From: Lentimicrobiaceae bacterium
GTDB lineage: Bacteria > Bacteroidota > Bacteroidia > Bacteroidales > F082
DNA: 34,376 nt
Direction: 5' to 3'
Assembly (NCBI GenBank): GCA_015061335.1
Contig: SUWT01000023.1
Coordinates: 1 to 34,376 of the forward strand
The notes beneath the pieces are model-generated. The model saw only the letters and a program-made list of their open reading frames with translations, was not told the origin of the DNA and searched no databases. Every line of letters starts with the position of its first letter. The first letter of the stretch is position 1. This document shows, one piece after another, positions 3,201 through 34,003 of the stretch. The position numbers were made by a program, and so were the translations under genes.

Positions 3201-6200
3201 TGCTGGATCAAATAGTTCAAATGTACAATTCATTTTTGGTATTGGAAATGAAATTGTAGAAAGTATTGTAGAAAATACTAAAATCAATGTAGGTGTTGGC
3301 GCAACATTAGATGGTATAATTTTAGGTATCCATGAAGATCAGAGCTTTAGTGTAGCAATAGAAGAAATGATAGTTCCTGCAGCATACGCTGACCAACTCA
3401 GAAGTGAAGGTTATGTTGTAAGTGAAGCTGTTGACGGTCTTATTCAAGTTACAGGTGTTGCTGTTGCTAAAATTGAAACAACAACATACGCAACCCTAGA
3501 AGATGCATTCAACGAAGCTCAATCAGGTGATGAAATTGTTGTTCTTACTGACATTATTCTTCCTGCAAAATCTGAAAACGGCGCTTTTGAAATTGCTGAA
3601 ACAGTAGGTAATGTTACTTTAAATCTTAATGGTTTCGACATCACTTCAAGTGAAAGAATTGGCTATACAGGTAGAACAAACTACGCTTTCGATAACTACG
3701 CTAACTTAACAATAAAAGGCGAAGGTACAATCACAGCAAGAGGTATCCAAAACTATGGTACATTAACAATAGAAGGTAATGATGTTACTATCATCTCAAA
3801 TGATGAATTGGTTGGTAATGGTGCTTGTATTTGGGGTTATCAAGGTAGTGCTACAATAATTAAAGGTGGTACATTCAGAGGTTTAGCGAAAGGCGCAGGT
3901 GCAATCAACACAGAAGGCTCATTAGAAATTACTGGTGGTACTTTCTCAGCAGATGGAAAACAAGATGAAGGCTATCATGTTTATACAATCCAATGCAAAG
4001 GTGATAACACTGTAAATACAATATCAGGTGCTACACTTTCATCTGGCAGACATGGTGTTATTGTCGTTCAAAATGGTGCTGAACTTACTATCAACAATGT
4101 AGAAGCCACACGTGAAGGTGTTCCAGGTCAATCTGGTCACGTACTCTATGTAGCTGACAATGGTATGTTAACAATTAATGGTGGTACTTTCGTTAATGAA
4201 GATGCTAGCGCAGGTTCAACAGTAATTTATACCGATGCTAATTCAAATACAGATGTAACTGATGGTACATTTACAAATCAAGGAGGCGCTAACGTTATTT
4301 CGGGTGCTGGTACAACAACACTCACAGGCGGTAATTATTCAAAAGACGTTACAAATTACTGCGCAACAGGTTATATCTCACAAGAAAATGAACAAGGCAG
4401 ATGGGATGTTATTGTTGACCCTACAATTCAAGGTGAAGCTATGATAGCAGGCGTAGGCTACGAAACCCTCGAAGCAGCTATCGCAGCTGCTAATCCAGGT
4501 GCAGAAATCGTTTTACTTAAAGATATTACTAGAAGTGTAATAGTTACACTGAATAAAGCAGCTATCCTTAATGGAAACAACAAGACTTTGACTTCAACAG
4601 CTGGTCGTGCTATTAATGTTGAAGTAGAAGGTAATGCTACAATTAAGAATCTTATCATCAATGTTTCTGGTGAAAGAGGTATTAACGTTATTCAAAAACC
4701 AGTTAACTTAACAATAGACAATGTTGTTGTAACAGCTAATAATTATGCTGTAAATCTTGCTACTTCAGCTTCTTCAGGAGAAAATGGACCTACAATCCAA
4801 ATCAATAACTCAGATTTAACAGGTCTCAATACAATTAACATCGCAGCTCCTTACACAACAATGAACATTGACGGTATTAAATTGACATGTAATGACCAAA
4901 ATGAAAATGAATCATATTCTGCTATAGCAATAAATGAGTACGGACCTCACTCTTATGTTTATGTTAAAAATTATGAATTATATATTGAAGGAGATTCTTC
5001 AATAGCTAGTGTGGGGGCAGAAGATAGTGATATAGTCTTTGACCCTGATCAAGAAATTCAATATTTTAATGCTGCAGTTTATGCATACGAAGGTGCTCCA
5101 TATTTTTATTCTTATACAACATTAAAAGCTGCTATAGAAAATGAGAATACGAAAGATGGTTCATATATTAGATTAGCTAGAACTTGTGAGGGAGAAGGCA
5201 TTGTTATCAATAAAGATGTAACTATTGACTTCTGCGGTAAAACATACACATTTGTAGAACCAGCCGTAGGTTCTAACGGGACACAAACTCAAGGTTTCCA
5301 AATTTTGAAAGACAACACAGTCGTTTTAAAGAACGGTACTTTGAATGTAGCAGAAGCAGCAGGTGAAGCTTTCGCAATGCTTATTCAAAACTACGCTGAC
5401 CTCACAATCACAGATATGACATTGGATGGTGATCATTTAGATCGTAACAACTATTCATACGTTCTTTCTGTCAACTGCGGTAACGTCCTTATCAATGGTT
5501 CTACAAGCATCTTAGCTAATGAAGTAGTAGGTGAAAATCATTTCGCATTCGATTCATACGATTATAGCGCTGGTGGATATACAGAACTTCCAGTTGTTAC
5601 AGTCAACACAACAGGTAAAATTAGAGGTATAGTTGAAGTAAGCGCAACTCTTAATTTAGAAGCTGTTGGTACAAATAATATTAGCCGTATTGACATATCA
5701 GGCGAAGGTCAGCTTTACCACAATGTAGAAGGTATCCAAGGTACTATCAAGAGAACATTTGAAAATAATGCTAATGACAATCCTGAAGACGACTGGTACA
5801 CCATCGCAGTACCATTTGCAGATCATGAAGTATCAGCTTTACAAACAACAACAGATTACGCTCTCTACCGTTACAATGAGAGTGCCGCATTATGGGAGAA
5901 TGTAAAAGTATCAGATAATAACTTCTTAACTTTAGACTTAGGTCGTGGTTATATCTATGCTAATGCAGCTACAACTGATTTTGAGTTCTCAGGTGAATTT
6001 AATGTTAAGCCTGTAACATACACACTTACTCTACAATCTCAAGTTGAGGATCTGAAAGGTTTCCACCTTATCGGTAACCCATTCGCTCATGATATTACAA
6101 TGAGTCATCTTACTGGTAAAACTTTAGCTGATGGTTTCTATGTGCTTTCTAACGATGGTGCTTGGAGTGCAAAATCATCTTTAGATAAGATTGCTGCTGG

Positions 6201-16874: not shown

Positions 16875-18311
16875 TTACCTAACTAAAGAACTGCCGATTT
16901 TATTCATTGCGCATCTGAAACCAATAGTGGCGTTGCATTCATCTTCATTCAAGAATCTACGGACAGAAGGACTTAAATAATAAGCTCCGTCAGCCCAAGA
17001 GCCTCCTTTATATACGCGAGATTTGTCGGATATTAATGTTGTTTCACCGTAAGCGTACATCTGTAATGTATATGCGTCATCGCTTTCTTCTTGGTTTGTC
17101 CAATCTGTTTGTATTGTTGACATATAGTCACCATCGTTAGCATTTAGGCTGTAATATTTTTTTGCGTCTTCGTATGCTGCCAATTGTTCTTCTGTCATGC
17201 CAAGGGTGTCAACACTTTTTTGAGTAATGATATTACCACGGTAAGGGTTGTGGTCGTGGAAGTCTTCGTATGAAAGAGGACGATATACGTCGAGAACCCA
17301 TTCGGCCACGTTACCTGCCATATTGTACAGACCATAGTCGTTTGGCCAATATGATGCTACCGGAGCAGGGAATGCGGCGCCATCGTTTAAGTCGCCGGCG
17401 ACACCCATATAGTCACCGCTGCCTCTCTTGAAGTTGGCGATGAAACTGCCATAGTAGTTTTTGTCATTTGTACGCAAACCATCGGTGTTCCAAGGATATA
17501 CCCTACGCTCAACGATACGTTCATCAGAGGTGTTGCCGATGAGACCTAAAGCGGCATATTCCCATTCTGCTTCCGTTGGGAGTCTGTATTTTGGAAGAAG
17601 AATGCCATCTTCTAATCTGACATTGCGTATGCCATCACCATTAGGATCTAAATCCTCAAAACCATTGTTGATAATACCAGTGTATTGACCAGCTAAATAT
17701 GCGTCAGTACTGAAGTTAGAGTCTTTATTTTGATAAGGGTCGTATGAAATGACACCTGCATCAACCAATAATTTCTCGTTAACTCTATCTGAACGCCATA
17801 AGGCATAATCGCTGGCTTGTAACCATGTTACACCTACAACAGGATAATCTCTATAGGCAGGGTGACGGAAATAAATTTCAACCATAGGTTCATTATAAGA
17901 CAAAGAACTGCGCCATACAGAAGTGTCTGGGACAGCCTTCTTGACCATCTCCGGATAATCTGAACCATAAACTCTGTTTAACCAGTAGATGTATTCCATA
18001 TAATCTAAGTTGCTGACCTCTGTCTGATCCATATAGAATGATGAAACTGTAACTTGTCTGGGAACATTATTCCATTCTTGATATACATCCTCAATAGTCG
18101 CTCCCATAGTAAATGTACCTCCTTCAATGGCAATGAGTCCAGGTCCGGTGACAGGCTCAGGAGAATCTGTTACGTAAAAACCTCCGTTTTCCGGATCATT
18201 GTAATTCCATCCCGTTGTTCTCGAAACATCTTTACCTCTGAAACAGGATACTAATAAACTTACACATAAAACTGCAAGTAACGACTTAATAACGAATCTT
18301 TTAAGCATCAT
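16875..18311 (-). CDS. gldJ: GldJ-like lipoprotein of the gliding/T9SS apparatus (FGE-sulfatase fold)
   Basis: 478 residues. The lipoprotein signal ends in SLLVSC with Cys23 as the lipid anchor, followed by TGWNYNDPENGGF, which resembles the start of mature GldJ. The rest is a formylglycine-generating-enzyme-like (SUMF1) domain: IEGGTFTMG, LPTEAEWEYAA, NMAGNVAEWV, KGGSWADG and IGFRCAMN. In Flavobacterium, GldJ is an outer-membrane lipoprotein that stabilises GldK and is needed for secretion and gliding. The divergent porU-porV on the other strand agrees with a GldJ role, since these genes are neighbours in Flavobacterium too. GldK/PorK is the main alternative, but the porLMN genes that normally follow porK are absent. 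A second ATG is at 18308. Confidence 0.82.
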   Translation of the reverse strand: MMLKRFVIKSLLAVLCVSLLVSCFRGKDVSRTTGWNYNDPENGGFYVTDSPEPVTGPGLIAIEGGTFTMGATIEDVYQEWNNVPRQVTVSSFYMDQTEVSNLDYMEYIYWLNRVYGSDYPEMVKKAVPDTSVWRSSLSYNEPMVEIYFRHPAYRDYPVVGVTWLQASDYALWRSDRVNEKLLVDAGVISYDPYQNKDSNFSTDAYLAGQYTGIINNGFEDLDPNGDGIRNVRLEDGILLPKYRLPTEAEWEYAALGLIGNTSDERIVERRVYPWNTDGLRTNDKNYYGSFIANFKRGSGDYMGVAGDLNDGAAFPAPVASYWPNDYGLYNMAGNVAEWVLDVYRPLSYEDFHDHNPYRGNIITQKSVDTLGMTEEQLAAYEDAKKYYSLNANDGDYMSTIQTDWTNQEESDDAYTLQMYAYGETTLISDKSRVYKGGSWADGAYYLSPSVRRFLNEDECNATIGFRCAMNKIGSSLVR

Positions 18312-18524: not shown

Positions 18525-21500
18525 ATGAAGAGTAAATATCTAAACTATTGTGTATTAAGATTATGTTTCTTTCTGGCTTTTGTGCTGATGTCATCCTATT
18601 CAGGCAAGGCTAATGCCGACTATGCAAATAATTCAATTCTTTCGTACGGAAATTGGTATAAAATGTCAATTTCTTCTACGGGTATATACAAGATAAGTTA
18701 TACTGAATTAGCGGAGATGGGAGTGCCTGTGTCTTCAATAAATCCTAAAGATATCAGGATATATCATAATGGAGGCGGTGTCCTGCCTGTCGTCAACAGA
18801 GAATTCCGTTATGACGATCTTGTTGAACTGCCTATTTATGTGCATGGCGAGAATGACGGCTCCTTCGATGAAAACGATTATGTGCTCTTCTACGCAAGAG
18901 GTCCTGTGACATGGACAGAGATGTCAGACTTATATAAACATAATTTCAACCCTTATTCCGATTATTCTTTCGCTTTCCTGACTACCGATTACGGTGAAGG
19001 GAAACGTATCTCATATGCGGATGAAATCGAGGATGAGGCATCAATGAAAGTGACGGAATTCCTGGATTATAGAATTATCGACAATGATGATGTTAACCTT
19101 AATAATATGGGAGCTACATGGTATTCGGATCCTTTTGATGTTGTGTCTTCAAGAGATTATTCTTTTAATTTCCCAAACGCCATTAAAAATAAAGAATCAA
19201 ATGTTATCGTCGATGTGGCATCACGTAATCAATCTAATGCGGCTTTTATAATAAAAGCGGATGGCGAGAAATTGTCACAGCTGAATTTTAAGAAGTTCGA
19301 CATGCAATATACTTATGCGCTGACAAAAAATACCGGTAATCTGAAGTTTAACCCCATCGGTGATAATGTCGTCATAAATCTATCATATACCAAATCAGAA
19401 TCATCGTCGATAGGCTGGCTTAATTATATTGCTGTCAACGTGTGGAGAGAATTGATATTCACTAATGCTGCCATGTCGTTCAGAAATCCTAACTGTAATG
19501 ACTCGGGTACGAATTACAGATATGAGATCAGAAATGCGTCCGGTTCGCTTCAAGTATGGGATGTCGCTAATCCGGTGGAGCCTGAGAAGATAAAGTTGCA
19601 TCTGAATTCCAATAAGGCTAGTTTCGTAACTAAAGGAGCCGAAAATAATGAATTTATAGCCTTCGATGGAAGTTCATTCAAAAAGGTGGGCTCTGCGACA
19701 AAGATAAGTAATCAGAATCTGCACTCAAAATATGATTTTGATTATCTTATCATAACACATCCTGATTTCATGTCTCAGGCAGAAAGGTTGAAAGAAATAC
19801 ATTCATATATCGATAATCTTGAGATCGAGATAGTTACACCTTCTGTCATATATAACGAGTTTTCCTGTGGAGCGACAGATATTACAGCAATACGCGATTA
19901 TATCAGAATGTTGTATAATAAATCTGGTCAACGTTTGAAGTATGTGCTCCTCTTTGGTGACGCTTCATACGATTTTAAGAATAAAAGTGGAAAAGTCTGC
20001 TTCGTGCCTACATACGAATCGGTGGCATCCTGCTCTGTATCCGATTGTCTGGCTACAGATGATTATTATGTTTGCCTTGATGATCACGAAGGTAATATGG
20101 AGAATGGAGGCTCTATTATCGATATAGCTTTGGGCAGAATCCCTGTATCAACACAAGAGGACGCAGATGCAATGATTGACAAGATAGAGACATATCTTTC
20201 TATGAATGAGGATAATATGGGACCATGGAGAAAACATATAACTTTCATCACCGACGATGATCAATCATATTATTCTACATGTGCGGAGAATCTTGTTGAT
20301 GACATACAGGAATTGGCTGGTGACGACTTTAGTTGTGATTTTGATAAAATATATCTTGACGCATATCCGCAAATCACGACATCTGGAGGTCAGCGTGCAC
20401 CTGAATGTAATGAGGCTATAAATAATAGAGTTGAAAGGGGCTCCTTGATAGTCAATTATATAGGACATGGAGGCGAAGTGGGCTGGTCAGCGGAAAGAAT
20501 GTTGACCAACGAAGATATCTTGTCATGGCGCAACTCTCCCAGACTTCATTTTATGATAACAGCTTCATGTGAATTTTCACGTTATGATGATCATACTAGG
20601 ACCTCAGCAGGTGAATTAGTATATCTGAATCATAACGGTGGAGCAATAGCAATGCTTACCGCAGGAAGAGTCACCAACTCCGGAGATAATAATCTAATGA
20701 TGAGAAAATTCTATGAACATTTCTTTGATAATGAAGATGGCGAATTCCTTTCAATGGGTGATTTGTACTTGTACTCTAAACAGGATGGTATCATTAACCA
20801 GAAAAGATACGTCTTCTTCGGTGATCCTGCTCTGAAATTTAACTACCCGGAGAATTTTATGGAGATTAATTCAATAAACAATCATCCGGCTAATGAGATT
20901 GACACCATCAGAGCCTTAGATGATGTTACAATAGAGGGTGTGGTGAAAGATATTAATGGTAATGTCATGACCGATTTTAACGGTACCGCATATATCAATG
21001 TTTATGATAAGGAGAATACATATACAACATATGGCGATGATACGGAACAATTCGATTTCAAACTGCGTAATAGCTTGATATATAGTGGTAAAGTGCCTGT
21101 CTATAATGGATATTTCAGTGCTGACTTCACTCTTCCAAAAGATATTAACTACAGTTATGGTAACGGTCTTATTAGTCTATACGCATATAGTCAGGAGACT
21201 GAAGCTCAAGGATCCTTCTCGAACTTCGTCGTAGGTGGAATGAATCCCGATGCTGATCCTGATTATGAGTCACCGGAACTGATGCTGTTTATTGATGATG
21301 ACAAATTTATTGATGGCTCTATAACAAACGAAAATCCAATCCTAATAGCTTACATCAAAGATGAAAATGGGATTAATACTTCAGGATCTGGCATAGGTCA
21401 TGATCTGACCGCTAAGTTATCAGGAGCAACAAATAAAACATATATCCTTAATCAATATTATGATAGCCCTCTGAATAAAGATGAATATGGTGTCTTGACA

Positions 21501-21920
21501 TACAGATTGTATAATCTAAATGAAGGTGAACATGAACTGGAATTTAAAGCATGGGACATATATAATAACTCTGTCTCATCAACAATACGTTTTAATGTTG
21601 TAAAAGGTAAAGTTATTCAATTGGAGAATCTTCATAATTATCCGAATCCTATGGATACTTATACTAACTTCGTGTTTGAACATAATCAGAATGATAATGA
21701 GATTAATGTTAGAATCAATATTTATAATATTGTAGGTCAGTTGGTTAAGACTATAAATGAGACTAGTTATGGTACCTCGATGAGAATTTCTCCAATAAAA
21801 TGGGACGGAAAATCAGATAATGGTGTATCTTTGCCTGCTGGAATTTACTTGTATAATGTTACGGTCACTAATTCTGTAAATGAAAAGGCTACAGAATACT
21901 CTAAATTGATAATCAAATAG
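18525..21920 (+). CDS. porU: T9SS sortase PorU, first copy
   Basis: 1131 residues, normal for PorU. A signal peptide ends near residue 30 (SGKANA). An N-terminal PorU domain (SYGNWYKMSISSTGIYKISY, then ENDGSFDENDYVLFYARGP) covers about residues 35-400. A peptidase C25 domain follows at about 410-790, with catalytic His648 (YIGHGGEVGW) and Cys682 (ITASCEFSRYDD). A beta-rich region ends in a C-terminal sorting-type domain (LHNYPNPMD, YNIVGQLVKTI, LPAGIYLYNV). PorU removes the T9SS tail from cargo at the cell surface and joins the protein to its anchor, in complex with PorV. The next gene, 4 bp downstream, is a full-length paralog, so which of the two is the true orthologue cannot be settled by eye. 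Confidence 0.92.
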   Translation: MKSKYLNYCVLRLCFFLAFVLMSSYSGKANADYANNSILSYGNWYKMSISSTGIYKISYTELAEMGVPVSSINPKDIRIYHNGGGVLPVVNREFRYDDLVELPIYVHGENDGSFDENDYVLFYARGPVTWTEMSDLYKHNFNPYSDYSFAFLTTDYGEGKRISYADEIEDEASMKVTEFLDYRIIDNDDVNLNNMGATWYSDPFDVVSSRDYSFNFPNAIKNKESNVIVDVASRNQSNAAFIIKADGEKLSQLNFKKFDMQYTYALTKNTGNLKFNPIGDNVVINLSYTKSESSSIGWLNYIAVNVWRELIFTNAAMSFRNPNCNDSGTNYRYEIRNASGSLQVWDVANPVEPEKIKLHLNSNKASFVTKGAENNEFIAFDGSSFKKVGSATKISNQNLHSKYDFDYLIITHPDFMSQAERLKEIHSYIDNLEIEIVTPSVIYNEFSCGATDITAIRDYIRMLYNKSGQRLKYVLLFGDASYDFKNKSGKVCFVPTYESVASCSVSDCLATDDYYVCLDDHEGNMENGGSIIDIALGRIPVSTQEDADAMIDKIETYLSMNEDNMGPWRKHITFITDDDQSYYSTCAENLVDDIQELAGDDFSCDFDKIYLDAYPQITTSGGQRAPECNEAINNRVERGSLIVNYIGHGGEVGWSAERMLTNEDILSWRNSPRLHFMITASCEFSRYDDHTRTSAGELVYLNHNGGAIAMLTAGRVTNSGDNNLMMRKFYEHFFDNEDGEFLSMGDLYLYSKQDGIINQKRYVFFGDPALKFNYPENFMEINSINNHPANEIDTIRALDDVTIEGVVKDINGNVMTDFNGTAYINVYDKENTYTTYGDDTEQFDFKLRNSLIYSGKVPVYNGYFSADFTLPKDINYSYGNGLISLYAYSQETEAQGSFSNFVVGGMNPDADPDYESPELMLFIDDDKFIDGSITNENPILIAYIKDENGINTSGSGIGHDLTAKLSGATNKTYILNQYYDSPLNKDEYGVLTYRLYNLNEGEHELEFKAWDIYNNSVSSTIRFNVVKGKVIQLENLHNYPNPMDTYTNFVFEHNQNDNEINVRINIYNIVGQLVKTINETSYGTSMRISPIKWDGKSDNGVSLPAGIYLYNVTVTNSVNEKATEYSKLIIK

Positions 21921-21924
21921 TTAA

Positions 21925-24900
21925 ATGAATTTTGTGAAATATATATACACTCTCAGAACACTATTCCTTTTGTTGCTTGTCGTAGTAACTTCTGTGACTT
22001 ATGCGCAAAATTATTCCTATGAATCTGTTTTGAAGGATGGAACATGGTTTAAGATAGGAGTGAAAGATGATGGAGTGTATAAAATTTCATATAATGACTT
22101 GATAAATCTGGGTGTTGACATTGATAATGTCAAACCAAAGAAGATCAGCCTGTTCGGTAATGAAAACGGTGTTCTCCCTGAGTCTAACTCCGCTCCCGCT
22201 TATGACGATTTGTCGGAGATGAGTATCATCGTCACTGGAGAAAATGATGACTCCTTTGATGAAAATGATGCCATATTATTTTATGCTCAAAGTCCTATAA
22301 AATGGGAATATACCGATAAAGGACGTTTCGTCCATAATACTAATTACTATTCTGACACCTCATTCTATTTTCTTACGTTAGATAACAAAAATGATGGAAA
22401 AAGGATTTCTGAGTCTTATTATATTGAAAATCATACTGATAAGTATATTGATGTTTTTCAAGATTACCAAACTCACGAGCTGGATCTAAATAATCGTTAT
22501 CGTCAGGGAAAATTGTGGTATGGCGAGACAATATCTCTGGCTACATCTCCGGAACATAGATTTACTTTTGTTTTCGATAATATTTTGCCAAATAGGGAGT
22601 CTCATGTCCGACTCAATATGGTAGGATCTTCATCGTCAGAAGTGTTTTATGCCAGAATAAAAGCTAATGATGAAATATTATTCGATAGTTTAAGAATAAG
22701 TAAATCAGGTTCTTATTACTTTGGTCATGAGATAGATAAAAACTCTATCTTCTTTAGTGATAACGATACTGTCAATATAGATGTAGCAGCGATTTCAACA
22801 AATTCAACATCATTAATAGGTGTCAATTTTATAGACGTAAATGTCTGGCGAGAATTGAAATACGAGAATAAACCTCTGCATTTCAATATCTTTAAATCGT
22901 TTCCTGATACTGATAGCCATGATATGCTCATTGGCAACGCAAATGAAAATCTGCACCTCTTTGATATTACAGATCCGCTAAATCCCGTTAGATGTAATTA
23001 TCTTATTGAAGATGGGATGATTAAATATCATGTTGTTCCTGATGTCAGAACATATTATATTTTGTTTGATGAATCTGATCATAAGGATGTAGAATTTATC
23101 AGACAGATAGAAAATCAGAACCTTCACTCTATCAGCTCGGCGGAGATGTTGATTATCACCCATCCTTTATTTAAGGAGGAAGCGGAGAGACTTAAAAAGC
23201 TTCATGAGGATTATGATGGATTATTAAGTGTTGTGGTGGAAGTTGATGAAATTTATAATGAGTTTTCAACAGGAGCTCCTGATGTTACAGCTATCAGAAA
23301 TTTTATCAGAATGGTTTATAGTAGAGATAACTCATTGAAATATGTTCTGTTATTTGGAAGAGGTACTAGCGATTATAAAAATGTTATGGGTGCTGATAAT
23401 AATTTTGTGCCTCCATACGAATCTATTGTGACATATAGCGAGATCAATAGTTATGTCTCAGATGATTATTTCGCTTTGATGGATCCTGCAGAAGGGGAAG
23501 AATGTAAGGGAACTGTTGACTTAGGTGTTGGTCGTATTCCTGTCTCATCAAAACAAGAGGCTTCAGATGTTGTGAATAAAATACATAAATATATTGAGTC
23601 TCAGTATAGAACACATGATATAGAATGGAGAGATAAGTTTCTCTTTGTGGCTGATGATGATATACCTGAGTATCCTAAAAACTGCGATCGTTTTGAAAAG
23701 ATTATCGATACATCCATGTTAACAGCCTCTGTCGATAAGATTTATACCGATTCATACGTCAGGACAAAAGTCGCTGATGGTTATTTATATCCTGAAGCGA
23801 CACAAGATCTCATCAATAAGATTGAGGAGGGGCGTCTCTTCATTACATATACAGGTCATGGAGGCGTAAAAGGCTTGACAAACGAAGGCCTTTTTAGAGA
23901 AGAGCATATCAAAAGTCTGAAAAATATTGATAATATGCCTTTCGTTCATACAGGTACATGTGAATTTAGTAAATTCGATGACCCTATGTATGTCTCCGCC
24001 GGTGAACAACTTTTTCTCAACCCTAATGGTGGAGCCATCGGCATGATAACGACAACTCGCCCTACACAGATAAGTCCTAATTACTCAGTAGGACTATACC
24101 TATATAAAGCTATGTTTAAGGACGGAAAGATTAGAGATATAACGTTCGGGGAGATGATCAGGATGGTAAAAGCTACAAGTAATAGTAACTCACCAAATTA
24201 TCTTTGTTATGTGATGTTTGGTGATCCTGCATTACGCCTGGCATATCCTGAGAAAGATATAAAAATCAATGAGATAATACCATCAGATAATGATTCTATA
24301 CATGTTTTGTCAGCGATGTCGCATTTTGTTGTGAGAGGTGAGATAATGAACGATAATCAAAGAGATGTGACATTTAATGGCATAATATATCCTAAGATGT
24401 TTGACAGCGAATCTGATTTCTCTACCTTAGATAATGATAATAATGGAAGCGTGTATAATTTCTCATTCTTCAAAAATGTCGTGTATGAAGGTAAAGCTGA
24501 GGTGAAAGATGGCACTTTTGAGTTTTCTGTCGTCATACCTAAATCTTTGACACATCAAGACAATAACGCTCGACTTTCTATGTACGCTGTTGATACTGTT
24601 GATTATTCTGTCGCATCTTCTCGTTATGATAATTTCGTTATAGAAGGTGTTGATGAGAATGTACATGTTGATGATGAAGGACCTGCAATAGAAATGCTTT
24701 GGACCTTTACAAATGATGATAGCGGAATATTGGATGTCCATTTTTATGATGAGCAGGGTATCATGCATTATGATAATTATATAGGAAGAGATATTTTGTT
24801 AATACATGAATATGAGAATAAGGAAAATACGATTATATTAAATGATTTATATGATCCTCAGCTGAATGATTATGCCAGAGGAAGTCTGAGTTTTGTTATT

Positions 24901-25308
24901 GAGTCGCTTGAGGCTGCTGATCATATTTTTACGGTGAGAGCTTGGGATACGCATGATAACTCATCGCAAAATAGTGTCGTTGTCAGTGTTGAAAAGCCAG
25001 AAACACAAGTCGTTTTGAAAGATGTGCTGAATAAACCAAATCCGTTCAAGGAAGAAACAAATATATATTTCGATTACACTAAGGATAGGGTGTTCTTCGA
25101 TCTTAGAGTTGATATTTATGATATGCTTGGTAAGAAGATCAATACATTGGAGTATTCAGGTTTGGATGATAAGACTGATTATATTCGTTGGGATGCATCT
25201 GATTTCTCAGGCAATGAGATTAATTCTGGAGTATATATTTTTAAGATATATCTGAAAGATTCGGAGGGTGATGAGTTTTATACGACTCAAAGAATGATAA
25301 AATTGTAA
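21925..25308 (+). CDS. porU: T9SS sortase PorU, second copy (tandem paralog)
   Basis: 1127 residues. A signal peptide ends at about residue 28 (VTYA then QN). Its layout matches the preceding gene throughout: DGTWFKIGVKDDGVYKISY, ENDDSFDENDAILFYAQSP, a VNVWREL segment, ITHPLFKEEAERLKKLH, and a C25 domain with His645 (YTGHGGVKGL) and Cys679 (HTGTCEFSKFDD). The His-Cys spacing is 34 in both copies. The tail (NKPNPFKEETNI, DMLGKKINTL, NSGVYIFKIY) is the same kind of domain. By eye the two share roughly a third of their residues, so the duplication is old and both copies look active. It lies 4 bp after the first copy and 68 bp before porV, probably in one transcript. A different cargo preference is possible but not shown. 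Confidence 0.9.
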   Translation: MNFVKYIYTLRTLFLLLLVVVTSVTYAQNYSYESVLKDGTWFKIGVKDDGVYKISYNDLINLGVDIDNVKPKKISLFGNENGVLPESNSAPAYDDLSEMSIIVTGENDDSFDENDAILFYAQSPIKWEYTDKGRFVHNTNYYSDTSFYFLTLDNKNDGKRISESYYIENHTDKYIDVFQDYQTHELDLNNRYRQGKLWYGETISLATSPEHRFTFVFDNILPNRESHVRLNMVGSSSSEVFYARIKANDEILFDSLRISKSGSYYFGHEIDKNSIFFSDNDTVNIDVAAISTNSTSLIGVNFIDVNVWRELKYENKPLHFNIFKSFPDTDSHDMLIGNANENLHLFDITDPLNPVRCNYLIEDGMIKYHVVPDVRTYYILFDESDHKDVEFIRQIENQNLHSISSAEMLIITHPLFKEEAERLKKLHEDYDGLLSVVVEVDEIYNEFSTGAPDVTAIRNFIRMVYSRDNSLKYVLLFGRGTSDYKNVMGADNNFVPPYESIVTYSEINSYVSDDYFALMDPAEGEECKGTVDLGVGRIPVSSKQEASDVVNKIHKYIESQYRTHDIEWRDKFLFVADDDIPEYPKNCDRFEKIIDTSMLTASVDKIYTDSYVRTKVADGYLYPEATQDLINKIEEGRLFITYTGHGGVKGLTNEGLFREEHIKSLKNIDNMPFVHTGTCEFSKFDDPMYVSAGEQLFLNPNGGAIGMITTTRPTQISPNYSVGLYLYKAMFKDGKIRDITFGEMIRMVKATSNSNSPNYLCYVMFGDPALRLAYPEKDIKINEIIPSDNDSIHVLSAMSHFVVRGEIMNDNQRDVTFNGIIYPKMFDSESDFSTLDNDNNGSVYNFSFFKNVVYEGKAEVKDGTFEFSVVIPKSLTHQDNNARLSMYAVDTVDYSVASSRYDNFVIEGVDENVHVDDEGPAIEMLWTFTNDDSGILDVHFYDEQGIMHYDNYIGRDILLIHEYENKENTIILNDLYDPQLNDYARGSLSFVIESLEAADHIFTVRAWDTHDNSSQNSVVVSVEKPETQVVLKDVLNKPNPFKEETNIYFDYTKDRVFFDLRVDIYDMLGKKINTLEYSGLDDKTDYIRWDASDFSGNEINSGVYIFKIYLKDSEGDEFYTTQRMIKL

Positions 25309-25376
25309 AAAAAAATTGAAATAGAATAAAATATTTGTATTTATCAAACGTTAGAAAGTTAATATTAATAAGAAGT

Positions 25377-26630
25377 ATGAAGAAAATTAGATTTACAATC
25401 TTGATGATTGTGTTGGTTCTCACTGGTTTGCGTCTTAATGCGCAATCTAATCCAGGAGATCAGGTTTTAGGACAAGATTTAGAGTATAATGTTATTTCTA
25501 CGGCTGTCCCGTTTATGATTATAGCTCCTGATGCAAGATCGTCTGCATTGGGTGATTGCGGTGTTTCTACATCTCCGGATGTTTATTCGATGCATTGGAA
25601 CCCTGCAAAATACGCTTTTATAGAAGAGGATTTTTCTGTTGGTCTTGCATATAGTCCATGGCTCAGAAATTTGGTTCCTGATATGAATATCGCATATCTG
25701 GGTATTTCAAAGCGAGTCAGTCCTAAATCAACGATAGCAGGAACATTGCGTTATTTTAGTTTAGGTGATATTATCTTTACAGAAGACGGTACGAATCAGG
25801 CTACATATTCTCCTAATGAATGGGCTGTTGACTTCACATATTCGAGGAAATTAGGTGATTATATCTCCGGTGCTGTTGCCGGTCGTTTTATCTATTCTAA
25901 CCTGACCCAAGGTGTTGTTGATTATTCAAAACCGGCTATTTCTGTGGCTGCCGACGTTTCTGTTTATTATACAAGAGAAGTTTATTGGTTTAACAATCTC
26001 GATGCTGTCTTCTCATGGGGTGTCGCAGTCACCAATATAGGTTCAAAGATGACTTATAATGATGCAAGTATGAAGAAAGACTTTATTCCTACCAATCTTC
26101 GCCTTGGTCCATCATTAAAGCTTGATATTGATGATTTTAACTCATTTACATTTACATTTGATGTAAATAAGCTCTTGGTTCCAACACCACCTATCTATGA
26201 AAGAAGTGACGATGGTTCTATTGTTATAGATGAGAATGGAGAACCTCTTATCGCAGAAGGTATGAGTAATGATGTAGGTCTTGTACAGGGTATGATACAG
26301 TCATTCTACGATGCTCCAGGAGGTTTCAGTGAAGAGATAAAAGAGTTCACCATTGGTTTAGGTACAGAATATTGGTACAATGAAACATTTACGGTGCGTG
26401 CTGGTTTCTTCCATGAAGCAAAGATGAAAGGAAATCGTCGTTATCTGACATTGGGTGCAGGTTTGCGTTACAATGTTTTCGGTCTTGATGTTTCATATTT
26501 AGTGCCGGTAAACAACACGGCTACATCAGGAACTAACCCTCTTGAAAACACACTTCGCTTTAGTCTTACATTCAACCTCGATAAATGGGGCGATTCTGAT
26601 ACAAAATTAGAGAAGACTCCTCAAAGATAA
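25377..26630 (+). CDS. porV: T9SS outer-membrane shuttle protein PorV (LptO)
   Basis: 417 residues from ATG 25377. A signal peptide ends near residue 22 (LRLNA then QS). The family start follows (VISTAVPFMIIAPDARSSALGD, then MHWNPAKYAF), and the rest is a FadL-like beta-barrel ending NTLRFSLTFNLDKWG. PorV accepts cargo from the translocon, binds its C-terminal signal and hands it to PorU. The upstream ATG at 25335 would add 14 residues (MYLSNVRKLILIRS) before a good signal peptide and is not favoured. Its stop is 1 bp from the stop of the convergent peptidase gene. Placement after two porU genes fits the PorU-PorV attachment complex. Confidence 0.94.
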   Translation: MKKIRFTILMIVLVLTGLRLNAQSNPGDQVLGQDLEYNVISTAVPFMIIAPDARSSALGDCGVSTSPDVYSMHWNPAKYAFIEEDFSVGLAYSPWLRNLVPDMNIAYLGISKRVSPKSTIAGTLRYFSLGDIIFTEDGTNQATYSPNEWAVDFTYSRKLGDYISGAVAGRFIYSNLTQGVVDYSKPAISVAADVSVYYTREVYWFNNLDAVFSWGVAVTNIGSKMTYNDASMKKDFIPTNLRLGPSLKLDIDDFNSFTFTFDVNKLLVPTPPIYERSDDGSIVIDENGEPLIAEGMSNDVGLVQGMIQSFYDAPGGFSEEIKEFTIGLGTEYWYNETFTVRAGFFHEAKMKGNRRYLTLGAGLRYNVFGLDVSYLVPVNNTATSGTNPLENTLRFSLTFNLDKWGDSDTKLEKTPQR

Positions 26631-26631
26631 T

Positions 26632-29016
26632 CTAAAGTTTCATGGTTTTTATAGTTTTGACTCTTCCATCGTCATAGATAATATGAAGATGGAGGAGTCT
26701 TTCTTTTATGTCTTCGCAGTCTATGATAATTTTTTCAGAAGGTAAGATACTATTGTTGTCGTATTGATATAGAATCTGACCCAAAGTATTATACATTACC
26801 ACGGTTTTAATGTTTCTGCTTTCAATGAATATTTTACTGCGGGTAGGATTAGGATATACCTTAAGTTCATCATTGTTTAAATAACTGACAACATCGATAT
26901 ATCCTTCATATCTGTAATGATCTTGTTTTGTGGCAACCACTTTTATCTTTTTACCTGCTATCTGTGGCTTGAAACTTATTATACTGTCTGATCCTAATGA
27001 AGTCGCGATTATTTTTCCATCGACAGAAAGTGCAAGTCTGGTGTCATTGTCTTTTTTTATCATGATATGACTGCATGCACTATTTATACTTTTAGGATGA
27101 CTGATTTCGATATGTTCTGGCATCTGAGTGTTAAGTTGCAGGTACGCATCGCCGAAGTAATGGAATAATTTATATGTAATATCTTTATAATCATTGAGAT
27201 ATGGCCAAGATGACTGTTTGAGGAAATATTTTCCATAGACATTAGCAAAAGAAGGGTATTTGAAAATAGTGTTGTTGTCTCCGAAAGAAGGCATGAACTC
27301 GTTCCAGAGATAGTCGTAATACCCCCACACATAAGTGTCGTTCACGAAGGAATAAGAGGTCTCAGAAGCGGCCACAACGGCAATGGCGCCGTTTTTAACT
27401 CGCAAGAAACGCTCGGCAAAGCAGTCGTTACCACTTCCCCAACCATAATTGAAATGTCCGGTTTGGCAGTTCGCCGACATAATAAAACAGAGGTCTTCGT
27501 TTTCTAAAGTGTTGATCTCAACGTTAGAAAGAAAAGGCTCTCCCCAGTTTTGATATCTTCCGTGATCTCTGTGTTGAACCATGAAACTTCCATTATTGAT
27601 GGCTTCTGTTAATTTATAAGAGTCTGAACACCAATTATTAAGATGCTTTAGGTCGGAAGGAATGTAATCTAAACCTTCAGGACCAAAATAATCAATGATC
27701 TTCTCAGTGTTTGCTGCCGTTGACCAAACGGAGTCGGGAATGCCTTCGTAAATCGCATTAATACGTTCCGGAGTCCTGCCTTTTTGTGCAAAAAAGCCAG
27801 CTATGACCTCAGAACATAATTGAAACCATCTTGACTCCTGAAATCCCATTGCAGTGATGGGTTTTGAATAATAATCTTGATTGTCGGAAGGTTCCCTCTC
27901 ATATCTAAAGATTTTTCTTGTCATCAGCTCGGCTTCTTCTTCATTGGCGACAGGAAGACGTGCAATATTGATCTCTGGTAGGTTATCGTTGTTGAAATCT
28001 ACTAGTTTATTGTCAGTAAGATATTTGAGATTTGTCTCAGGATGATCGTTGAGAAAAAATGATGAAATGCCTTTGGTATTATCCATGCTATAATCACCAA
28101 ATAATAGAATTGACGATGGTACTAAATCCCAATTCTGATAAATATTATGAAAGTAATCTTTTATAACAAGAGGTTTGTTTTCTTCTATTTTATTTATGTT
28201 TATGACCTTAGTGAGAATGCCCTGTTCGTTGCGAAAGATTGCCAAGCTGTCAGCCCATTTTTTAATATCTTGATTATCAGGAGTTATAATGAGGTACTCG
28301 CAACCTTCTTTATCATTTTCAATGATTTCTTTCAGATAATAGTCATAATTGAAGTCGCTGATTGTTTCAGGATTTAAAACAATGTCTTTCAATAGATTAT
28401 CCCATTCCTTGCTTCTTAATCGATTGTCATATAAATAGTTGGCATTATCATTGTATGAAATCTTTAATTCAATATCATAAGTGATCTTTAGAGATTTTCT
28501 TACAGGATTATATTGAAAGGGAGCGACATTAAGCAGTATAAAGTTAAAAGCCCTGATGTTGTAATTATCAGATATTTGGCAGATCTTATGAGGATAGAAA
28601 GCATCTTCATTATACACTTCTGCATAATTGTTGCTTATTATATTTTTATCATTATCGGCGGTTATTTTTTCTGCGGGTCTAATTTCAACATTCTCTATGA
28701 TTTTCTCTTTACTTGAGATTATTTCAACGGTAGGTCTTGAATTGTTTGGTATCAGAATAAAACAAGAGTTATTTGGCAAGTTAGGAGTTCCTGCTTCTGA
28801 TTGGAGCTGGATCCCCTCGAAAATAATCTCGTTATCTTTAATCTCAAAATCGGAGATATTATGTTTTATGTTAATGTAGTTTGTGTTTCTGGAGTTTATT
28901 GTAAAACCTTGAACGTTAGTGTTTTGTAGGATGAATTTTTGTGCGTTGGCATTCATGCTAATAAGACATAGCATTATCAGTGAGCTGATGAGAAGAATAT
29001 GTTTATCGTATTTCAT
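26632..29016 (-). CDS. Gingipain-type C25 cysteine peptidase with T9SS sorting domain
   Basis: 794 residues from ATG 29016. A signal peptide ends near residue 26 (NANA then QK). A propeptide-like region covers about residues 30-220. The C25 catalytic domain (from about 240, LIITPDNQDIKKWADSL) has His485 (VQHRDHGRYQNWGEPF) and Cys517 (SANCQTGHF), then CFAERFLRVKNGAIAV. A gingipain-like Ig segment is followed by a T9SS type A tail from about residue 720 (LKVYPNPTRSKIFI, YNTLGQILYQYD). The frame opens upstream at GTG 29025, but that codon lies in the likely -7 box, so the ATG is preferred. It should be a surface or secreted protease, exported by T9SS and processed by PorU. Substrate preference (Arg or Lys) cannot be read safely from this sequence. 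Confidence 0.9.
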   Translation of the reverse strand: MKYDKHILLISSLIMLCLISMNANAQKFILQNTNVQGFTINSRNTNYINIKHNISDFEIKDNEIIFEGIQLQSEAGTPNLPNNSCFILIPNNSRPTVEIISSKEKIIENVEIRPAEKITADNDKNIISNNYAEVYNEDAFYPHKICQISDNYNIRAFNFILLNVAPFQYNPVRKSLKITYDIELKISYNDNANYLYDNRLRSKEWDNLLKDIVLNPETISDFNYDYYLKEIIENDKEGCEYLIITPDNQDIKKWADSLAIFRNEQGILTKVININKIEENKPLVIKDYFHNIYQNWDLVPSSILLFGDYSMDNTKGISSFFLNDHPETNLKYLTDNKLVDFNNDNLPEINIARLPVANEEEAELMTRKIFRYEREPSDNQDYYSKPITAMGFQESRWFQLCSEVIAGFFAQKGRTPERINAIYEGIPDSVWSTAANTEKIIDYFGPEGLDYIPSDLKHLNNWCSDSYKLTEAINNGSFMVQHRDHGRYQNWGEPFLSNVEINTLENEDLCFIMSANCQTGHFNYGWGSGNDCFAERFLRVKNGAIAVVAASETSYSFVNDTYVWGYYDYLWNEFMPSFGDNNTIFKYPSFANVYGKYFLKQSSWPYLNDYKDITYKLFHYFGDAYLQLNTQMPEHIEISHPKSINSACSHIMIKKDNDTRLALSVDGKIIATSLGSDSIISFKPQIAGKKIKVVATKQDHYRYEGYIDVVSYLNNDELKVYPNPTRSKIFIESRNIKTVVMYNTLGQILYQYDNNSILPSEKIIIDCEDIKERLLHLHIIYDDGRVKTIKTMKL
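26659..26710 (+). terminator. Probable porV terminator inside the convergent peptidase gene
   Basis: On the + strand, GACTCTTCCATC (26659-26670) pairs with GATGGAGGAGTC (26688-26699) over 12 positions with a single G-U wobble and a 17-nt loop, followed by TTTCTTTTATG. The hairpin begins 28 bp after the porV stop and lies wholly within the last codons of the C25 peptidase gene on the other strand. On the - strand it precedes the stop and has no T-run, so it should act only on porV transcripts. Confidence 0.6.
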
Positions 29017-29024
29017 AATTGTCA

Positions 29025-29032
29025 CAAAGATA
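29025..29032 (-). promoter_or_regulatory. -7 box of the 794-residue peptidase gene
   Basis: Reading the - strand, TATCTTTG is a perfect TAnnTTTG match, ending 8 nt before the ATG at 29016. Transcription would start around 29018-29019, leaving almost no leader. I see no clear -33 element. Confidence 0.5.
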
Positions 29033-29137: not shown

Positions 29138-32100
29138 TTACTTGATTACAATATGTTTTTTCCATATATAATCGTTTGTTGAGATAGTCATTAGGTATGA
29201 GCCATTTGACAAATAATCAAGGTTGATTTGTGTATTGAGAGAGTTGTCTGATGAGCTAATTTCTTGGGTATATACAACTTCACCTAAGACGTTATAGATG
29301 ATTATTTTAGCTTTGTTATCATTAATGTTATTGATTTTAACGTTGATTGATTCGTCGGCAGGGTTAGGATAAACAGTTAACTCATTAGCTTTGTATTCGT
29401 TAACGCTGATCATACTGGAGAAGATATTAAGTGTTTCTGAGTATTCGCCGGCACATTCTGCAGTGACGCCTCTTACTTTAAGGCTGAGGTCGCCATTAAA
29501 ATCTTGATTCCAGACGATTTCGATTTCATTACCGTTACCGTTTATTGTACCTGCTTCTGCCGGCTCTAATAACCATTCGTATGATGTAAATGTTTCGTTA
29601 GCGTTTGTATAATAAACATTAGAAGGTGTTTCGTCTTTAGCGATTATAGTGCTGCCTATTGGTTTTTCTGGGATAGCTACATTGATAACATTAACATTGA
29701 ATGTGTTATTAAGAGATGTGTAACAACCATTTGCGTCGCTGACCTCTGTCAATGTATATGATGCGGATTCATTAGAAACCTCGAGGTAAAGGATATTATC
29801 TTCAAGGACTTGATATTCGTTATCATCGCCTTCTAGTTTTACGATAAAAGGAGCTAATCCGCTGAATTCAACAGGAATTTCAGCTATGCTGTTAGGGCAT
29901 GCGGAGTTTTCTGTTTGGATATTGATCAATGTCAGAGCTTCTCTTATTACGAGTTTAATATCTTTTGTCGCTAAAGAACAGCCGTCTGCCGTGATTGTCA
30001 ATGTAGCTTCTCCGTTAGCGATATCTTGGCTGCCAGGAGTATATGATGTTTCGGCTGCTGTTGCGTCAGCGAAAGTTCCATCACCATCAGTAGTCCATAA
30101 TATTGTTTCTGCATTTTCTACTACTGCCGATAATGCTGCAGGAGCGTTGCCACAGGCTGATATTTCATCTTCAGCTTCAATTGTTGTTTCGCCTAAGATT
30201 GATAAAGTGATGCTTTGTTCTATGTCGCTACAACCGAATACATTCAAAGTAAGAACGACTTCGCCGTTTTGAATATCTTGAGCACCAGGAGTATAGATGT
30301 TATTGACTTTATTAGGTTTGTTGAAAGTTCCGTCACCGTTAGAGCTCCATGATACAGATAAATAGTCTGTAACATCAGCATTTGTATGGTAGCTTTCATT
30401 AAAGCATACTACGTCATTTTCAGCCATTTGTATGCTTGGATCGCCCATAAATGTAACCAGAATATCGTCAGATATAGTTTCACCATTTTCATCGGTACCA
30501 GTGAGTGTAAGTGTTACTGAGCCGTTAGCGGCATCTTGTGTACCAGGAGTATAGACAGGATTTACGATAGAAGTACTGCTAAAGCTACCGTCGCCATCTG
30601 ATGACCATTCTATTGAACTGTGATTATTTGCATATCCATCGAGTTCAAATTCAACATCGGCACAAGCGTTGAAGTCGAGTCCGGCGCTGATAGCCATTCT
30701 CTTATCGGCAGGGAGAGTGATATAATCTATCCATGCGCAGTCGCTACCATTACTTTGAGATGAATCTTTAGTGTAGGCCCATTTGAAGGTATGTACGCCT
30801 TCGCTAACGGCATATTTTTGTTGAGACCAGTTGACACTACCTGACCAATTGCCCATCTGTTGGTTATCAATATAGAAAAACAGTTTGTCCCAACCGTTTT
30901 CGGAAGATACTTTTACGAAGAAAGAGATAGAGTCGTTGTTTCCAACTTCGTATTGAAGTGATATTTCTGATGATTGATTATTTCCTATAGAACTTGATTT
31001 GATGCAATAGTTACCATCATGGGCATCTTCGTTATAGATTTGCCAAGGAAAACTAGATGTATTATTCCAGTCAAATTGTGATAAATCGCCAGTTTCGAAG
31101 CTTTCGATGATGAGACCTACTTTAGAGTAGAAAGTTTTTGCAGCATTGTAATAACCTGATTCGCAATTCAATGTGTATTCTGACAAGAATCCTATAGGAG
31201 TTCCAGGGCTAACATAGATGTCGTAGCTTACAGTTGCTGATTCACCAGCTTCAAGAGATTCTATTGATGCGTCATCGCTTAATAATTGCATAAATGAGTT
31301 GTGAATTTCTAAAGAAGTGAATATTTCGTTAGCTTTACTATTACCTATGTTTTCTATTGTGAATGTAAGTGTTGCTTGTTCAGCAGGATCGAGGAATCCG
31401 TTGTTATTACCTTCAATCTCTGTTATTGTGAGATTGTCGATTTTGAATTTAGGTGCATAAGCTTTGATGTTGATATGACTTTGATAAGTTTCGCCATCGC
31501 TTTCAATATTAACAAAGAGATGGTTGTTAGTATTATTAGGAACGCTGTCAGATACATATATTTCGAAAGCGTCTTCGATGTTTACGGTTTCATCAGCATC
31601 TAAGCCATCGAATGTAATAGTTGGGCTTGTAACGGTAATATATTCAGATTCAGATACTAATGTTACAGTAGCGTTGCTAGAAGGATCTTGGCCAACATTT
31701 TTGAATGATAAGTCGAATGATGCTGTTTCGTTGAAGTCGAGTTGAGTATCATCATTACTCAATACGTATTCATCGAGGATCAAGTAAGGTCCATCGGCAG
31801 CTATAACTTCTACTTCTCTTTCATAACGCAGATAATTTTGTCCTGTAACAACAACATTAATGATTGTTGGAGGTACTTGAGCAGGTATTTCTATGCTTTG
31901 AGCGTTACCTGTAGCTTCGCATACTGCAATGATTTCTATTTCACCGTTATCAACTTCTTTAGTAAGGGCTATTGTGGTATTTTCTGGGGCTGTAATATTA
32001 AATGTTGTAAGTCCGGCAATTTGTACATCCTGATGAGTAACAATCATTTCTTGAGGTACTTCGCTGTATATGCGTAAGAAGGCATCACAGTGAGCGGTAA

Positions 32101-34003
32101 ACATCTGATATGTGATATCTTTATCGTAATAGTTGTAAGGCCAAGAACATTGATACAAGAAGTATTTGCCAGCGACATTACCGAATGCAGGGAACCAGTT
32201 ACCTTCGTAATCTGCAAAAGGACCGTAGTCGGGCATGAAGTCAGGGTCGAATTGGTCATAAACACCCCATACATAAGCGTCGTTGACGAAAGAGAAGGAT
32301 ACTTCTGTTGGGCATAGCATAGCTACTGCACCTGCGTTTTGTCCGTTATATGTGTGGCGCATGAATCTTTCTGCGAAGCAGTCGCTGCCGAGGTTGTATT
32401 TTCCTGTCAAACAGTTGATTGACATTATAAATGCTAACTTACCTGTATTGGTGAGTTGATCGACGTGGTTGTTTCTGAATGCAGGTTCGCCCCATCCTGT
32501 TTCGAGACCGTGGTCGCGGTGTTGTACTAAGAAAGTACCGCTATTGATAGCATCGACGATTTGTTGAGGAGAGCCATTATTCCAATCACCCATTTCACCA
32601 GGTGTAGCAGTAATATATCCAAGACCGTTAGGTCCAAAATAATCAACCACCAAAGATGTGTTATCAGCGCTTGACCAGATGTTTTCTGCATCAGGATTAC
32701 CATCATAAATCTGATTGATACGAACAGGTTCTTTTCCTATGCTGCGGAAGTAACCTCCTGCTACTTCAGAACATAATTGGAACCAGCGTTCTGTTTGCCA
32801 ACCTAAAGCAGTGACAGGATACTTGTAACTGTCGGAATCCATGTTTGGATTTTCTACTTCATATTCAATTTGTTTGCCAACGAAGATTGGTAGTTCTGTT
32901 TCATTTTGTGCAATTAGACGAGAGAATGTCATATCAGGAAGAAGATTTCCATCAGGGTCTGCATACTGGTTGTCAGTGATACAAGATCCTGAATATGAAT
33001 GAGGGATAACTTCTGCAGGAATACCCATTGTCATATCATTATTATGGTCGGCTAATAAACAAACAGCAACAGGTTTTATAGTCCAATTGTTGTATGCGTC
33101 ATGGAACCAAGCTTTAAGTTCAGTTGTACTTGTTACGCCCATTTCATCAAGACGGAATACCTTAGTCAAAATACCTTGTTTTGTTCTTAAGTCGGCAAGT
33201 TGTTTTGCGTATGGAGCCCAAGCATCGTTATTAGGTGTGATGATAAGATATTCGTATCCGTCAGAATCATCCTTGATCCATTGTTGGAAACGTGCCTCAT
33301 AGTCAATTTTAGGAAGGCTGTTGTAATTGATAATATTTTGAGCTAAGATAGGATCAAAATACGGTGAACGATAAGCGTCCTTGCCGAATTGTCCGTTGCC
33401 GCCTTTGTAATCGATAGCTAATTCAATATTGTGATATATTATAACTTCTTTTGTTACAGGATTGAACTGTACAGGATTAACATTTAAAACTACGATATCG
33501 ACTCCACGAATAGAAGTTTGTTCTCCAATGGAAACGAATTCTTTAGGATAAAATTCATTCTTTGAATATACTTTTTCATTTTTTATGTAATCCAACTGAG
33601 GTTCTGCGTCCTGAGGTTCAATGCCGCGAGAAGGAGCAATGTTAACATTCTCTATAAGCTCTTTTTCAAAACTAATTACGTTGACGTTAGCCTCTGCACC
33701 TACTGGAATAGCAATCATTGTGCTCAATGATGGAACATTAGGCATGCCTTTGTCGTTAGGAATAACAATGCCTTTTATGCCAACTTCATGCATTTCTTCT
33801 CCTTTGTAATCTAGAGATGATAAGTCTAGCTTACTGATGTTGAAATTAATGTTGATGCTGTTACTTTTTTGCTCAATGATTTGAAAACCATCATTTTGAT
33901 GATTAAAATTGAATGAGCGTACATCTTGTGCCTTAATGGCAGATGTTAGTCCTAATAATAGCATTGCTACTATAGGAATGATAGTGAAAAGTCTCTTTCT
34001 CAT
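29138..34003 (-). CDS. Large gingipain-type C25 peptidase with Ig-like/CARDB/adhesin extension and T9SS tail
   Basis: 1621 residues. A signal peptide ends near residue 25 (IKA then QD). A propeptide-like region runs to about 215. The C25 catalytic domain has His498 (VQHRDHGLETGWGEP) and Cys531 (SINCLTGKY), then SDCFAERFMR. An Ig segment at about 650-735 is followed by two CARDB-like domains (LDFNETASFDLSFKNVG; FLDPAEQATLTFTIENIG). Next come a jelly-roll, adhesin-like domain (about 955-1105), three Ig-like repeats (about 1110-1375), and a T9SS type A tail (LTVYPNPADESINV, YNVLGEVVYTQE, GSYLMTIS). The N-terminal half is clearly paralogous to the 794-residue neighbour. By analogy with gingipains it is a surface protease; the extension may bind host or matrix targets, which is inference. 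Confidence 0.9.
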   Translation of the reverse strand: MRKRLFTIIPIVAMLLLGLTSAIKAQDVRSFNFNHQNDGFQIIEQKSNSININFNISKLDLSSLDYKGEEMHEVGIKGIVIPNDKGMPNVPSLSTMIAIPVGAEANVNVISFEKELIENVNIAPSRGIEPQDAEPQLDYIKNEKVYSKNEFYPKEFVSIGEQTSIRGVDIVVLNVNPVQFNPVTKEVIIYHNIELAIDYKGGNGQFGKDAYRSPYFDPILAQNIINYNSLPKIDYEARFQQWIKDDSDGYEYLIITPNNDAWAPYAKQLADLRTKQGILTKVFRLDEMGVTSTTELKAWFHDAYNNWTIKPVAVCLLADHNNDMTMGIPAEVIPHSYSGSCITDNQYADPDGNLLPDMTFSRLIAQNETELPIFVGKQIEYEVENPNMDSDSYKYPVTALGWQTERWFQLCSEVAGGYFRSIGKEPVRINQIYDGNPDAENIWSSADNTSLVVDYFGPNGLGYITATPGEMGDWNNGSPQQIVDAINSGTFLVQHRDHGLETGWGEPAFRNNHVDQLTNTGKLAFIMSINCLTGKYNLGSDCFAERFMRHTYNGQNAGAVAMLCPTEVSFSFVNDAYVWGVYDQFDPDFMPDYGPFADYEGNWFPAFGNVAGKYFLYQCSWPYNYYDKDITYQMFTAHCDAFLRIYSEVPQEMIVTHQDVQIAGLTTFNITAPENTTIALTKEVDNGEIEIIAVCEATGNAQSIEIPAQVPPTIINVVVTGQNYLRYEREVEVIAADGPYLILDEYVLSNDDTQLDFNETASFDLSFKNVGQDPSSNATVTLVSESEYITVTSPTITFDGLDADETVNIEDAFEIYVSDSVPNNTNNHLFVNIESDGETYQSHINIKAYAPKFKIDNLTITEIEGNNNGFLDPAEQATLTFTIENIGNSKANEIFTSLEIHNSFMQLLSDDASIESLEAGESATVSYDIYVSPGTPIGFLSEYTLNCESGYYNAAKTFYSKVGLIIESFETGDLSQFDWNNTSSFPWQIYNEDAHDGNYCIKSSSIGNNQSSEISLQYEVGNNDSISFFVKVSSENGWDKLFFYIDNQQMGNWSGSVNWSQQKYAVSEGVHTFKWAYTKDSSQSNGSDCAWIDYITLPADKRMAISAGLDFNACADVEFELDGYANNHSSIEWSSDGDGSFSSTSIVNPVYTPGTQDAANGSVTLTLTGTDENGETISDDILVTFMGDPSIQMAENDVVCFNESYHTNADVTDYLSVSWSSNGDGTFNKPNKVNNIYTPGAQDIQNGEVVLTLNVFGCSDIEQSITLSILGETTIEAEDEISACGNAPAALSAVVENAETILWTTDGDGTFADATAAETSYTPGSQDIANGEATLTITADGCSLATKDIKLVIREALTLINIQTENSACPNSIAEIPVEFSGLAPFIVKLEGDDNEYQVLEDNILYLEVSNESASYTLTEVSDANGCYTSLNNTFNVNVINVAIPEKPIGSTIIAKDETPSNVYYTNANETFTSYEWLLEPAEAGTINGNGNEIEIVWNQDFNGDLSLKVRGVTAECAGEYSETLNIFSSMISVNEYKANELTVYPNPADESINVKINNINDNKAKIIIYNVLGEVVYTQEISSSDNSLNTQINLDYLSNGSYLMTISTNDYIWKKHIVIK
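29890..30680 (-). repeat. Three Ig-like protein repeats in the large peptidase
   Basis: Three units of about 84 residues each contain W-S/T-S/T-D/N-G-D-G-S/T-F, then about 11 residues later YTPG-T/A/S-QD, and N-G-x-V/A-T/V-LTL. The W residues fall near residues 1131, 1214 and 1298. This form is common in Bacteroidota surface proteins. It shows internal domain duplication, not a DNA-level repeat. Confidence 0.8.

Follow-up and report, generated by a model that had tools for sequence, protein, structure and literature searches.

Tandem PorU sortase genes of Bacteroidales traced to an ancient duplication

The nearest relative of solved structure for the two proteins considered here is PorU of Porphyromonas gingivalis (6za2), which carries the same catalytic dyad and which both of them match in sequence over nearly the full length. 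Passages of PMC10202324 describe PorU on PorV as cleaving the cargo tail by a Cys/His dyad, after which the cargo is attached to A-LPS or released, and they report that dimerization inhibits PorU activity, an effect mediated by a hairpin between two PorU; the same passages leave to be unravelled how PorU picks effectors for release versus attachment. Section 6 of PMC11285876 shows that P. gingivalis PorU needs its final residues for its own export. A second, putative PorU-type sortase has been named by NCBI in some T9SS genomes, PorU2 (NF052324) with PorV2 (NF052325); our two copies lie far under the cut-off of its profile, and the second of them, PorUb, is a paralogue distinct from it. The C25 catalytic domain is shared by gingipain-type C25 cargo proteases, and two of them are encoded just downstream of the pair, but unlike the PorU copies they carry Propeptide_C25. 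P. gingivalis presumably has a single PorU, from which the locus described here differs by a second, divergent tandem paralogue. Several sortases per cell divide the substrates in Gram-positive bacteria, whose sortases are unrelated in fold and pathway and serve as an analogy only.

PorU itself is known, but the open-access literature searched showed no ancient second paralogue maintained in tandem over many families and no description of a PorU paralogue pair. That literature included parts of PMC11285876, PMC8545088, PMC10202324, PMC7323717, PMC4936053 and PMC12618676, and most subscription papers lie outside it. PMC7323717 presents a PorU tree of 109 sequences; its main text contains neither "paralog" nor "duplicat".

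Two PorU copies and their locus

The window, i.e., the whole 34,376-nucleotide stretch of DNA that was analysed, is an entire contig (C111) of a 2.58-Mb genome that is 92% complete. It holds murF, a gldJ-like gene, two porU genes, porV and two more C25 genes, and the features of interest are as follows:

241-6894, + strand: 2217-aa protein with a type A sorting tail (TIGR04183, 28 bits)
16875..18311, - strand: gldJ-like lipoprotein gene, divergent from the porU pair and a conserved neighbour of it (TIGR03524, 425.6 bits, under the cut-off of 458.2)
18525..21920, + strand: porUa (copy a), PorU sortase of the a clade, 1131 aa, His648/Cys682 (NF033707, 1193.2 bits)
21925..25308, + strand: porUb (copy b), PorU sortase of the b clade, 1127 aa, His645/Cys679 (NF033707, 961 bits)
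25335..26630, + strand: porV, outer-membrane shuttle (NF033710, 462 bits)
26632-29025, - strand: gingipain-type C25 protease with Propeptide_C25, its tail under the TIGR04183 cut-off
29138-34003, - strand: gingipain-type C25 protease with Propeptide_C25, its tail over the TIGR04183 cut-off

The reading frames of porUa and porUb are 4 bp apart. For porV, the listed TTG start at 25335 is probably wrong; an ATG at 25377 is likelier and gives a signal-peptide-like N-terminus. The 2217-aa protein is likely a large T9SS cargo, and besides the tail models no NCBIfam or Pfam profile matched it at E 0.001.

Profile, predicted fold and dyad all identify both window copies as PorU. Their scores against the NCBI PorU profile, NF033707, exceed its cut-off of 420 bits, while against the PorU2 profile, with a cut-off of 450 bits, copy a reached 190.1 and copy b 224.2 bits, so that neither is PorU2; a profile search of the window's genome found no PorU2 over the cut-off. 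A gingipain-type C25 cargo protease was considered as the identity of either copy and ruled out, as neither matched Propeptide_C25 (PF08126), which is present in both downstream C25 genes. P. gingivalis PorU (6za2) was the sole solved relative found by sequence for either copy, with matches over residues 29-1130 of copy a (E 4.7e-123) and 33-1124 of copy b (E 2.9e-98). It was also the best Foldseek match of both AF2 models (mean pLDDT of 85.8 for copy a and 88.0 for copy b), at an overall rmsd of 18-20 A that leaves the relative placing of the domains unconfirmed. Full-length profile and sequence matches nevertheless follow the domain order of 6za2 through the C-terminal domain in both copies, which share with it a C25 domain, Ig-like domains and a C-terminal domain. 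The C-terminal tail is kept as well, copy a ending in KLIIK and copy b in RMIKL. The Cys/His dyad is found in both window copies and in 148 of the 149 rows of the PorU alignment, the exception (L142_s) showing a gap and an X, and in the trees both copies are nested among the PorU of the order and class.

These results confirm, by profiles, 6za2 matches and dyad, what a preliminary description had proposed from the letters, namely two full-length PorU in tandem with intact dyads, and the identity of roughly one third that it had estimated was measured at 33%. The possibility that one copy belongs to another C25 family was also checked, and profiles, 6za2 matches and the mixture-model tree spoke against it for both.

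The C25 genes of this genome deserve a separate remark. Beyond both PorU copies it has 14 further C25 matches, two of these in the window; clusters on two other contigs (C77 and C127, loci L257 and L258) showed Propeptide_C25 and a T9SS tail in all six proteins scanned, a secreted protease set that is large for 2.6 Mb. A C25 gene after porV was also seen at L128, L129, L147, L150, L155, L182 and L196.

Frequency and descent of the pair

Tandem PorU is a minority state in the order and not the rule. Counting two near-complete PorU over the cut-off with less than 1 kb between matches, we found the arrangement in 10 of 75 genomes in a first set made up of one genome per family in the order at >=90% completeness, or in 12 when G020 and G030 are added, in which a contig end truncates the second copy and which were counted apart. 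Another 80 genomes, G082-G159 together with two congeners (G201 and G286), gave 15 more, for an order total of 25/155, or 27 with the contig-cut pairs; the window's genome and one congener are included. This answers the objection, raised with the preliminary description, that tandem PorU might be the rule in the clade, as far as the order is concerned: loci with an a and a b copy were fetched partly because they were paired, and the frequency figures therefore cover the order and not the a/b clade. Two collections were kept out of the count, 80 genomes chosen in part after a first look at the matches and the named loci, which were fetched with a query alignment of nine b and three a copies. 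A sample of the class comprised 75 genomes, 72 of them outside the order, with two tandem pairs among these (G338 and G305). Within the window's genus, the pair occurs in G000 (the window's genome) and G201, and a single PorU over the cut-off in G101 and G286, both 99% complete. Scoring just two candidates per genome had suggested two PorU in most genomes; this was rejected, the second match being mostly a distant C25 protein below the cut-off.

The trees trace the pair to what appears to be one ancient tandem duplication, whose copies have stayed adjacent in at least 19 families. The large tree (FastTree, 342 rows, 328 of them different) was built from 149 and 115 rows taken from loci, 59 of the 120 listed relatives of copy b and 19 of the 120 listed relatives of copy a; it sets copy a among 101 rows that form a clade with support 99, and copy b in a clade of 142 for which support is only 83. 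In a mixture-model tree of 51 rows (LG+C20+PMSF), all 22 b rows form one clade (SH-aLRT 99.4), with the outgroup rows on the opposite side. The a rows there form one clade of 20 (97), save for the separate pair L107 and for L072_a and L130_a, which stand beside the 20-row clade at a poorly resolved fork, and in the window's wider group the branching order of the genomes is identical in the a and b subtrees. Altogether 73 loci have the upstream copy in the a clade and the downstream copy in the b clade; seven were drawn twice through two collections, which leaves 66 distinct loci. Coded genomes supply 36 of these a/b loci, from 19 family codes, and named MAGs supply others.

The position of copy b was reached gradually. 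An early tree of 149 PorU already set most upstream copies apart from most downstream ones and put the window's copy b elsewhere on a long branch, as simpler-model trees did. Under sparse sampling the free tree joined it to the a side with a support of 81, and a b clade (p 0.49), an outgroup position (0.52) and a duplication restricted to the genus (0.37; 0.157 in another run) were all left standing by AU tests. The long branch was broken by adding relatives of each copy and the named loci, and the placement of copy b rests on these added relatives, in quick trees made without bootstraps. Together with purifying selection and the 73 loci, the a and b clades support the earlier proposal of an old, maintained duplication.

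Several pairs stand outside the 73 loci. One copy falls elsewhere in f4 (L061, L137 and L084), f51 (L135), L085, L157 and G012 (L145/L146), the copies of L108 are not sisters, and L058, L059, L060, L086, L087, L138 and L107 are separate duplications. Separate PorU duplications appear in f97, f31, f22/f109 and f164; at L060, L086, L087 and L138 (f22 and f109), the second PorU lies ~1.4 to 5.7 kb off and comes from a duplication distinct from a/b. The tandem of L107 (4344-15769, in G338, from another order) reads porV, porV, porU, porU, porV, the porV being porV-like genes. Two porV genes follow the pair of L157. At L085, L145/L146 and L157, one copy groups with the PorU of other orders and the other near the b clade, a pattern for which gene replacement or an older split are possible explanations.

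Retention and loss of each copy

Both genes are under purifying selection. Four close pairs were measurable in both genes and gave dN/dS of 0.089-0.181 for a and 0.097-0.238 for b, values to be read with the caveat that two of the four have dS of 1.0-1.3, near saturation; two further pairs were saturated in at least one gene. The dyad is kept in 71/71 a and 71/71 b copies. The two genes share a strand in all 73 a/b loci, at a median gap of 18 bp, and their surroundings recur, with 57 of the 73 followed by porV within 2 kb and 62 preceded by a divergent gldJ; some of the missing neighbours reflect contig ends, and elsewhere porV is not adjacent. The b copy has evolved further, its path from the duplication being the longer one in 71 of 73 loci. 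No domain of b is as conserved as its counterpart in a; the gap is widest in the second Ig-like domain (entropy ratio 1.29), and C25 is the domain that b conserves best. Strict columns that separate a from b number only two, and no specificity switch is visible, since the window's copy b lacks the b-typical residues at both.

Six loci retain gldJ, porU and porV in place with an a copy only (L128, L129, L169, L178, L182 and L192). They represent about four lineages, and the lineages without b include two members of the window's genus. The genomes of these six loci, for two of which completeness is given, contain no other PorU over the cut-off. The reverse state, an intact locus with b only, was not seen among the four single rows of the b clade that we checked: L171 begins close to a contig end, the partners of L144 and L146 are on another contig, and the a frame of L139 is broken. 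The asymmetry, about four lineages with b lost to none with a lost, is suggestive and covers too few lineages for a firm test.

Possible working of the pair

It is likely that bacteria with the pair have two enzymes for surface attachment instead of the one that is usually described, and a division of cargo between two tail classes, each copy handling its own set of type A tails, would be one way to employ them. The preliminary description had raised such classes and the question whether two porV genes accompany the pair. Genomes with two PorU do have more first-look TIGR04183 candidates (median of 181 in 38 genomes, or 182 in 33 after dropping five unresolved pairs, vs 97 in 41 single-PorU genomes), but these candidates are unscored and most two-PorU genomes belong to one clade, so that the contrast is confounded by descent. 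Counts in four genomes of the window's genus do not fall where b is missing: the paired G000 and G201 have 93 and at least 150 tail matches, and the a-only G286 and G101 have 93 and 97. Sampled tails (35 of the 93 in G000 and 40 of the 93 in G286) formed one continuum with silhouettes <0.1 and no separate class, although they were the high-scoring ones, among which a deviant class could have been missed. Over the cut-off, the window's genome holds a single PorV and a single PorQ, besides one unassigned PorV/PorQ-family protein, and none of the 73 a/b loci has a second porV beside the pair. Neither two tail classes nor two porV genes with the pair thus found support, and we regard separate tail classes as decidedly unlikely. 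A single PorV, steady tail counts and the lack of a second tail class in the sample lead us to prefer a main and an accessory sortase that act on the same tails via the same PorV. We lean, by a little, towards this reading of the locus, i.e., two full PorU genes from one ancient tandem duplication that share one PorV.

Under the main-and-accessory reading, porUa and porUb would be co-transcribed, as the 4-bp gap and shared strand suggest. Each copy would rely on its own C-terminal domain for export and be retained by PorV, so that two kinds of unit form, PorV-PorUa and PorV-PorUb, and both copies may cleave ordinary type A tails through the Cys/His dyad. PorUa would perform the indispensable cleavage and anchoring; PorUb, we would guess, might take a subset of the cargo or lead to a different outcome, such as release or an acceptor other than the usual glycolipid.

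Other roles for the second copy have to be weighed against this. Plain dosage, in which it merely adds sortase capacity, would fit the dyad and architecture kept in both copies, the separate duplications in f97, f31, f22/f109 and f164 and the absence of b from some lineages; yet 33% identity, matched descent over 66 distinct loci and purifying selection amount to a long time for simple redundancy, which makes it unlikely. That b is a decoy or scaffold devoid of useful peptidase activity is hardly credible with His and Cys in 71/71 b copies and C25 as its best conserved domain, even if b is less conserved than a throughout, particularly in its second Ig-like domain. Residues 826-858 of copy a form the stretch that we take to be the latency hairpin of P. 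gingivalis PorU, and the span of this putative hairpin between two marker columns is similar in a copies, b copies and single copies, at 28-31 residues in most. PorUa and PorUb could then keep each other latent by hairpin exchange until the attachment complex is reached, in keeping with the title of the 6za2 entry, a dimeric latent PorU, and with the hairpin-mediated inhibition between two PorU in the cited passages of PMC10202324. Such heterodimer regulation is very improbable in our estimate: a stands alone with the same neighbours in about four lineages, where it does not need b, and this speaks against an obligate heterodimer.

A broader version of the main-and-accessory reading is offered tentatively, as something we would sooner doubt than expect: in a large part of the Bacteroidales, PorUa and PorUb from one operon would share one pool of PorV and steer the same tails towards two fates, anchored vs released or passed to another acceptor, possibly with mutual latency by hairpin exchange. 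A paralogous sortase pair, with related species that lack one copy, offers a direct comparison for the choice between release and attachment.

The single PorU model NF033707 spans two old paralogues, and T9SS trees and presence tables can consequently mix them. We also noticed a further PorU-like protein with a frame of ~880-1025 aa, which matches the profile from position 1 to ~850-910 and stops short of PorU's last part; it occurs at G013:C100, G090:C115, G130:C48, G158:C20, G172:C10, G192:C30 and G210:C170:49814-52543.
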